From Haliclystus octoradiatus (taxonomy: Eukaryota; Cnidaria; Staurozoa; Stauromedusae; Haliclystidae), in assembly GCA_916610825.1 (NCBI GenBank), contig OU744448.1, positions 3,211,501-3,275,500 on the forward strand: a DNA stretch of 64,000 bases. The letters run 5' to 3'. The notes beneath the pieces were generated by a model, which saw only the letters and a program-made list of their open reading frames with translations, was not told the origin of the DNA and ran no database searches. Shown one piece after another: positions 56,135-59,100 of this stretch. Both the position numbers and the translations under genes were made by a program. How positions within the stretch are numbered: position 1 is the stretch's first letter; each line of letters begins with the position of its first letter.

Positions 56135-59100
56135 CTAAAATTATAAATAGGAATACAAACAGAAAATATTTAACATTGACATTAATAAATCATGTCTATG
56201 CTTGCTCAGAATTTGCTATGCAAATTTGAACACTTACAGATTTCAAAAAAGGGGACCACTATATAAGCCTGGTTTCCATATAGCAAATTTGCCTGTGTCG
56301 TTGCCTGCGACATTTGCCTGGGTCACAGCCGTAGACATTTAATGATCTTTTTTCTATTGTTTCGACCGGATATCATTAGTTTTGCCTGCGTCATTTCAAA
56401 GTTGAACTCACTCCAACTTTGAAATCAGTCAGGCAAAACTAATGATATCCCGTCGAAACAATAGAAAAAAGATCATTAAATGTCTACGGCTTTGACGCAG
56501 GCAAATGTCGCAGGCAACGACGCAGGCAAATTTGCTATATGGAACCAGGCTATAATAAGTGAGTACATTTAAGCGAACATTTACTTCCAGTGTGACATTA
56601 TTTCTAAATATAGTAATAGTAATTTGTGGATAAAAAAATATGTAAACAAATCATGAAATATAATTAGTTTACATGTAATAAATTATGCAAAGTATTAGCA
56701 ACATCATCGCTAATACTGATAAACAATGTTAGAGGGGCAACATTGACCGCCGGTGGCTACGAGCGTGATTTTGAATTTTGATTAATGTAATTCAATAATA
56801 AACGTTAGTCATGGCTTTGGAATGTCTTTAAATCTCAAATTTCAATATGGTTTTTAGGCACAGAAATAATGCGAACGAAAAATACACACGTGACGTTATA
56901 GCGCGTGGAGCCCACCGGTCATTTTTGCCCCTTCAAGTTCGGATCGAAACAAACACGAGTCAGCACCTAACCAAGACGAATATATATCGACTTGGGATGT
57001 GTCTATACTATTTGCGATATGCATTGCCCACTACTTCGGTAGTTTGAGCACTCTGGTATGGCACAGATGTTTTTTTCATGTGATGAATTTTTTCACCACA
57101 TTGATAACTCATCTTGACTTAGGTTATATACTGAAGTCAGTTCCTTGTTCGCTCACTGAGCAGTACTGATGAAGGCTAATGGCCAGAAACATGTACTTGT
57201 CTGCTGCTATATATATATATATATATATATATATATATGGAACAACACCAGTAATAGTATTATTTATTATTATGTAGACTTACTTCCCCATTCGTGAGTT
57301 GCAAACACCTTGATGTAGTTTGTGTCAGTTGGATCACCAATAGGTAATGTATTTGGATTGACCATATGCGTTGCTGTCATATTGGCAGATGAAAAGTCAT
57401 CTGGAGTCATTGGGTTCCATCCTGCACTATCCTTTTTCATGTAAGTTTTACCATCACGAGCAATACCAAGTACATCGCTGTTAGATGCTATTCCAAGAAT
57501 GCACCCAATGTTTGGTATCTCTCCTATCAATCGAGAATCAATAAATACCGTAGCTTATTACAAATCATCGGTGGTATACATATAGAATAGACACAAACAT
57601 GAAGCAAAAGCCTTTTCCGTTGCTCGGAGTTTCACGCGTTTACTTTGCATTCATCAGACGGTTCACTTCAGACGGTTTACTTCAGACGGTTTACATCAGA
57701 CGGTTTACTTCAGACGGTTTACCTCAAAATTACACCACTGTAATATTCTTCTAGCTGGCATTAGAAAACATGAACTATGCAAGTTTTTACAACGTATTCA
57801 AAATGCCGCAGCACGTGTACTAACATCTACCAAAGCACGATATTACATTACACCTGTACTCCGTGACTTACACTGGCTAAATGTTGAGTATCGTATTATT
57901 TTCAAAATCCTCATCACAACATTCAAAATTCTAATAAACATTGCACCATTATACCTAAAAGAACTGATACAACCATATAATACAACAAGAACCCTACACT
58001 CAAGTGACAAAAACCTGCTTCAACAACCATCATTTAAATTAAAATCGTACGGAGAAAGATCAATTTCATTTTTAAGTCCAAAATACTGGAATTTACTACC
58101 TAATAATATCAGGAACTGCTTTACATTAGATGACTTTAAATCGAAAACAAAGACTTATCTATTTTTAAAGCAAAACTATTTATTTTAACCTAGCCAATAG
58201 TGACATTTTACAAACAGTTTTTATCTATTAGTTCTACTTTTTACTCCAATTTTAGTTCCAAATTTATTCTGAATAGTGCTTACTTTTAAACATACTTTTA
58301 ATTCAATTACTATATACTTTTAAAAATAATATTGTAAAGAGCTCTTGGATTAACGTTAGAAAGAGCGCTATATAAATGTAATTATTATTCTTCATATTAT
58401 TATTATTATTATTATTCTTATTCTTATTCTTATTCTTATTCTTATTCTTATTCTTATTCTTATTATTTTTATTATTATTATTATTATTATTATTATTGTT
58501 ATTGTTATTATTATTATTATTATTATTATTATTATTATTATTATTATTATTATTATTATTATTATTATTATTATTATTATTATTATTATTATTATTATTA
58601 TTATTATTATTATTATTATTATTATTATTATTATTATTATTATTATTATTATTATTATTATTATTATTATTATTATTATTATTATTATTATTATTATTAT
58701 TATTATTATTATTATTATTATTATTATTATTATTATTATTATTATTATTATTATTATTATTATTATTATTATTATTATTATTATTATTATTATTATTATT
58801 ATTATTATTATTATTATTATTATTATTATTATTATTATTATTATTATTATTATTATTATTATTATTATTATTATTATTATTATTATAGTGGTTGTTGAAA
58901 AATTTTCGGTATTATACATTATACCATCGTCAGTTCAAAAGAAAGAAATATTAATTTACAAATTACTTATAGGCTAAGGATCTAAAAACTTAATACATTC
59001 TAATTGTTAAAAATAGTGCTAAAAATAAAACAATGAAACAGAAAGGAAACCTATTCAATTACAATATGTTCTATCATGCATATATTTACAAAAGGAGACG

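Follow-up and report, generated by a model that had tools for sequence, protein, structure and literature searches.

A 48-base motif with the make-up of a hammerhead ribozyme lies in the 64-kb stretch of genomic DNA analysed here (hereafter the window), and it raises the question of which kind of element carries it and how that element came to be inserted there. The original prediction took the motif for the end of a Penelope-like element or a retrozyme, possibly still able to self-cleave, and placed a ribozyme cut after position 57201. Our analysis supports such an origin, as the motif belongs to the 3′ part of a retrozyme-type copy. The locus is probably a 5′-truncated copy of a non-autonomous retrozyme that is mobilised by Penelope-like elements via a shared initiation stem-loop. 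The TA target, the fixed 3′ end and the link to a Penelope-like family go beyond what had been proposed.

The hammerhead motif and the retrozyme copy in the window

All 48 bases of the motif read as originally described, including the A-A opposition. The motif is built of a helix I of six pairs, one of them G-U (GCAGTA/TGCTGC), the core segments CTGATGA and GAA, a helix III of ACA/TGT and the cut site C57201. Helix II comprises 3 bp (GGC/GCC) over the A-A opposition at its base. The hammerhead core, helices I and III and the cut C are all present in the type I layout. When searching the window for the loose core CTGATGA-N6-18-GAAA-N4-20-TGTC, this site was the only match, compared to 0.07 expected from shuffled sequences. 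The coordinates of the features found in the window are collected in Table 1.

Table 1. Features of the retrozyme locus and of Penelope-like pieces in the window
Feature	Position	Strand	Remarks
Predicted type I hammerhead ribozyme	57160..57207	+	Unit positions 214-261; 48 bases
Predicted cut	57201..57202	+	After C57201; unit position 255^256
Retrozyme copy	56985..57207	+	Unit positions 39-261 of the 261-bp unit; 5′-truncated, single unit
Second stem-loop of the unit	57030..57052	+	ACTAC-TTCG-GTAGT then TTGAGCACT
(TA)15.5 microsatellite	57208..57238	.	Abuts the fixed 3′ end; read as insertion target
3′-UTR-like piece of Penelope-like family	53187..53355	+	blastn of L030 3′ UTR, 94.7%
Second, inverted 3′-UTR-like piece, same Penelope-like family	53079..53162	-	blastn, 96.4%

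A check against the hammerhead models of Rfam, which the original prediction had proposed, turned out negative. No hammerhead was found in the whole window at gathering scores, in the 401 bases around the motif at E values up to 10 or in an internal 261-base stretch of another copy of the family (L004). A genome-wide search with Hammerhead_1 (RF00163) gave eight sub-threshold matches, none of them in the retrozyme family, and the retrozyme motif does not reach the gathering score of 34 bits. The eight matches outside the family, for instance at G000:C2:35621730-35621772, scored 30.9 bits at best. In addition, the minimum-energy fold of the 48-mer (-10.6 kcal/mol) differs from the hammerhead pairing (-8.5 kcal/mol) by a gap of 2.1 kcal/mol, in a nearest-neighbour energy model that omits the non-canonical contacts of the hammerhead core. 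The hammerhead is also absent from the minimum-energy fold of the circular RNA, and the stability of this circle is not unusual (z -0.9). The helix III strand (unit 243-254, window 57189-57200) is nearly self-complementary, and two copies were predicted to pair over 10 of 12 bases (cofold, -7.6 kcal/mol). A double hammerhead, as reported for newts, would therefore be possible.

The motif forms part of a repeat unit of 261 bp with 40.6% GC. When the 262-Mb genome (33 contigs) was queried with 601 bases, at least 175 matches were obtained, many of them rows of TA repeats only, and the 261-base unit gave at least 103 matches; with 40 candidates scored in each search, both counts are lower bounds for the family. 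Our sample consists of 44 loci, which represent every cluster among the matches listed. In these loci, blastn of one unit identified 53 arrays with 117 unit pieces. As the arrays derive from the best-scoring matches, the set is biased to young copies. Two pieces at L021 (G000:C11:13010000-13016400) were counted as one array, leaving 52 arrays for analysis, of which 33 hold more than one unit piece. The L021 array is split by a 3.5-kb hAT-type transposon (1168-4709), which shows an 8-bp duplication (CTATGTAT) and encodes a hAT dimerisation domain. The units are thus short, tandemly repeated, low in GC and dispersed, like those of metazoan non-LTR retrozymes (about 170-400 bp). Judged by these sequence features, the family is a new one among animal non-LTR retrozymes, and its motif is a type I hammerhead.

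Because the motif recurs across this dispersed family, it is more than a chance match. In a sample of 104 units, 98 contain the 48 bases in full, and 90 of these are identical to the majority sequence. Changed cells amounted to 10 of 4,869 in the ribozyme versus 149 of 18,900 outside, and one recurring variant was found within the ribozyme versus 15 outside. This lower variation in the ribozyme is suggestive only, with shared ancestry still contained in the counts.

The copy in the window is identical over 223/223 bases to the majority of the subfamily with a G at unit position 157, and it therefore looks recent. Its first two bases may come from the TA target. The first stem-loop of the unit (unit 9-39) is missing from this copy through the 5′ truncation. 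The exon-like frame closest to the copy (57270-57554) and the cadherin-like frames of the window all lie on the minus strand, and a donor-like GTAAGT lies between this exon-like frame and the TA tract. Judged from the frames and the donor-like site, the retrozyme appears to lie in an intron, antisense to its host gene. On that reading, the ribozyme would be absent from the host pre-mRNA. With its one ribozyme the copy could cut a plus-strand transcript, but it could not alone release a unit-length monomer.

Two minus-strand frames elsewhere in the window, 22783-23277 and 46830-47315, resemble each other and encode cadherin-like domains just below the Pfam cut-off. These and further similar frames point to paralogous genes arranged in tandem. 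Long ATT repeats were found at 58381-58886 (84 hexamer copies) and 59588-59726 (46 trimer copies).

Ends and homogeneity of the arrays

The 3′ ends of the arrays are strongly fixed. Not counting the end created by the hAT insertion, 49 of the 52 arrays end at unit 260-261, two at 60-61 (L034 and the plus array of L075) and one at 203. The fixed end lies six bases beyond the predicted cut. TATATA or ATATAT was found within 14 bases of 46 of the 49 fixed ends, and the other three are next to TTA or TAA repeats. A longer TA stretch within the unit (TTATATA near 178) is never an array end in the sample, which argues that target pairing alone does not choose the start of reverse transcription (RT). 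At L010 (G000:C8:4351000-4355200, 2080-2420), two retrozyme arrays face each other tail to tail on either side of (TA)n. Between them lies an inverted 3′ piece of 12 bases, fused to unit position 157. This arrangement could reflect priming from both strands of the TA target.

We also mapped the 5′ ends of the 52 arrays, omitting the hAT-made start. Nine arrays start at the predicted cut (eight at unit 256 and one at 255), and no unit position besides this peak has more than three starts. Assuming uniform starts, the probability of at least nine starts in a two-base target is about 2.5e-10. Single starts are known to about one base, because the T of TGCTGC may also belong to the TA target, and the 52 starts include some unclean insertion ends, for example those of the second piece of L013, the second plus piece of L010 and the plus piece of L075. 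Eight more starts fall at unit 259-3, where TATGTATG of the unit can overlap TA targets; one of these, the plus start of L075, is only an alignment break in a diverged copy. In 38 of 53 cases the 5′ flank holds TATATA or ATATAT within 14 bases. An RT that runs off at an RNA end made by the ribozyme would leave such a peak at 256. The position originally predicted for the cut is thus where the 5′ ends of the family pile up. This footprint in the genomic 5′ ends argues indirectly for a ribozyme that is active in vivo even with A opposite A in helix II.

Units of the same array tend to share their variants. Unit position 157 (T 69, G 36) is homogeneous in all 29 multi-unit arrays that cover it, compared to a mean of 10.5 and a maximum of 20 homogeneous arrays in 2,000 permutations. 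Other sites are less strict, with position 175 homogeneous in 26 of 29 arrays and position 114 in 26 of 28. For variants common to at least two arrays, 28 array cases are homogeneous versus 7 mixed. Among the private variants, five are fixed across the covered units of their own array and 39 occur in some units only. The homogeneity is in line with rolling-circle reverse transcription from a single molecule and mutation afterwards. Multimeric copying of young source arrays would leave a similar picture, and a circular template is therefore favoured, not proven.

All nine arrays that start at the cut, six of which consist of a single unit, have TGCTGC at either end; a cut monomer has one TGCTGC, at its 5′ end. 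The template must therefore have crossed an uncut or re-joined site, and may have been circular or multimeric or have involved a switch from one molecule to another. A variant that is compatible with the proposed retrozyme cycle does without circles: the templates would be linear, either multimers transcribed from genomic arrays and cut in part, or monomers linked when the RT jumps between templates. TGCTGC at both ends of mostly single-unit arrays that end at 261 implies a template longer than a cut monomer yet with a cut 5′ end, which such linear RNA would provide, and run-off requires open RNA. On the other hand, copying of whole arrays or template jumping does not ensure that inherited variants are mostly homogeneous, as observed (28 versus 7). 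We regard linear templates as a serious possibility, though a somewhat doubtful one.

A putative Penelope-like partner and a shared stem-loop motif

The original prediction had suggested looking for repeats of the unit beside GIY-YIG or reverse transcriptase frames. Dispersed repeats were found. In reading frames near the arrays, there are protein pieces in which a Cys cluster is followed by YIGLT, R, H and E, and one piece has YRDD. We take the order Cys cluster, YIGLT, R, H, E to be that of the Penelope-like GIY-YIG endonuclease. With tblastn, 10 of the 44 loci gave such motif-bearing pieces, and the 64-kb window gave none. Naming them through Pfam failed, as no matching family was obtained at E values up to 10, and searches of NCBIfam and PDB sequences as well as structure models likewise left the partner protein unconfirmed. 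The name Penelope-like therefore rests on the motifs and on the untranslated ends.

The ends of the partner family contain a minimal type I hammerhead (GAAACT..AGTA), with 15 matches at 9 of the 44 loci. In most copies a stem-loop, GCTC-stem-T(T/C)GAGCACT, comes next. On our reading of the 15 matches, a microsatellite is reached before this stem-loop in six copies and after it in eight, and one copy is different. With this minimal type I hammerhead close to the RT start and its two end classes, the partner matches what is expected of a Penelope-like element. The retrozyme likewise has two end classes, the common one at 261 and the one at 60-61 in two copies, and these flank a stem-loop of its own.

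This first stem-loop of the retrozyme, TCTC-AATTGCGCATGCGCAATT-TTGAGCACT at unit 9-39, lies just downstream of the priming point. At unit 84-106, a stem capped by TTCG leads into another TTGAGCACT. In 20,000 shuffles of the unit, one copy of TTGAGCACT occurred in 19 and two copies in none. We searched for the stem-loop pattern outside the retrozymes and found 28 matches in 153,634 bases (25 in flanks, three in the window), compared to 0.6 expected under a first-order Markov model. The matches represent 18 distinct forms. An inner stem of at least three pairs is present in 15 of these, with the paired alternatives TGTCA/TGACA, TATCA/TGATA and TGATA/TATCA. Upstream of the 28 matches, the (c)ttgac of the partner was found in 15 cases and ctttgatct in five. 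The latter context comes without a matched hammerhead, and not every stem-loop match need therefore be Penelope-like; the shared motif is also short.

In the 93,336 flank bases around the retrozymes, Penelope-type hammerheads or stem-loops amount to 31 features, which fall at 17 of the 44 loci. The control for this density is the 64-kb window alone, which holds three overlapping stem-loop matches at two places, blastn pieces at four places and no match to the partner-type hammerhead pattern. Of the two 3′-UTR-like pieces in Table 1, the plus-strand one holds the stem-loop GCTC..TTGAGCACT at 53262. The 3′ end of the partner points towards the retrozyme in 18 of the 31 features, and 11 are arranged tail to tail.

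The retrozyme might instead be moved by another non-LTR retrotransposon (LINE), or by several, in which case the proximity of the Penelope-like family would reflect a common preference for TA microsatellites or an earlier creation of these. A LINE-like reading frame indeed lies on the plus strand at 57586-58188; this 200-aa open stretch resembles what we take to be the C-terminal part of a LINE RT, and it has no match in Pfam. Both families are found beside microsatellites in mixed orientation, and the failure of the database searches to confirm the partner protein also leaves room for another helper. Against this, the retrozyme and the Penelope-like family have a stem-loop motif in common next to the RT start, and two end classes are seen in both; we consider a LINE an unlikely mobiliser. 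A 14-bp tandem repeat, TCAGACGGTTTACT, at 57654-57726 overlaps the LINE-like open stretch. Finally, spread of satellite-like DNA through recombination or extrachromosomal DNA, with an inert ribozyme, would agree with the tandem repeats, the lack of an Rfam match and the A-A opposition, but is very improbable given the dispersed copies with a fixed 3′ end, variable 5′ truncation and 5′ starts that concentrate at the predicted cut.

A proposed cycle and its relation to known retrozymes

Mobilisation by Penelope-like elements could proceed as follows. Tandem units would be transcribed, and each hammerhead would cut after TGTC, so that the RNA begins with UGCUGC, as the genomic 5′ ends suggest. 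The RNA may then be present as circles or partly cut multimers. The Penelope-like machinery would recognise the stem-loop ending in UUGAGCACU, which starts 14 bases past the cut and is suggested as the signal by the shared motif, and would nick TA, TTA or TAA repeats. RT would start at a fixed internal point just upstream of this stem-loop, which would explain the observed fixed 3′ end. One molecule could be copied several times over to give homogeneous tandem arrays. Synthesis would stop at scattered points, causing truncation, or run off at the ribozyme cut as in nine of the 52 arrays.

In the 2020 paper on metazoan non-LTR retrozymes (PMC7229834), those of coral, mussel and axolotl are described with a type I hammerhead, low-GC tandem repeats of about 170-400 bp and no LTR. 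Penelope-like elements were proposed there as strong helper candidates, while the mobilising element of animal retrozymes and the priming of the circular RNA were left open. The present family is alike in its type I hammerhead, its short low-GC tandem repeats, its dispersal and the lack of an LTR. It adds a fixed 3′ end at TA, TTA or TAA repeats, a 5′ peak and a stem-loop shared with Penelope-like elements, none of which is noted in the portion of PMC7229834 consulted. As presented there, the axolotl ribozyme HHR_Amex2 has a short helix III and a helix II with a U-U mismatch at its base, and its monomer cuts slowly while the dimer does better (PMC7229834). The present ribozyme resembles it in both helices, with A-A in place of U-U, and differs in sequence and unit. 

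Another close comparison is Poseidon, a Penelope-like element of the lizard Anolis. According to PMC11167929, RT initiates internally at two sites, with the stretch between them forming an optional tail; a hammerhead lies near the RT start, the targets are AT-rich, and the protein cuts and extends both strands. The two end classes of our partner family resemble these two start sites (PMC11167929). The retrozyme itself is alike in its predicted hammerhead near the RT start, its proposed internal initiation and its AT-rich targets. It differs from Poseidon in having no protein, and its end, six bases past the cut, allows 0-3 bases of target pairing.

Among the titles and abstract openings listed in our searches of the open-access literature, none mentions that animal retrozymes target microsatellites, have 5′ ends at the ribozyme cut or share a stem-loop with a helper. 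In a wider model, which we judge to have about an even chance of being right, animal retrozymes would be parasites of Penelope-like elements and carry the RT-initiation stem-loop of their helper (NCUC-stem-UUGAGCACU) directly downstream of the ribozyme. At TA microsatellites, the helper would initiate on circular or multimeric RNA, always from one internal position, and full-length insertions would owe their 5′ end to the ribozyme cut. The genomic 5′ ends can be used as indirect evidence for a ribozyme that is missed by Rfam. The family provides both an exact end point and a target, and in addition a helper candidate from the same genome and a stem-loop that may serve in recognition. If the model is true, it would identify what mobilises a retrozyme and by which signal its RNA is recognised.
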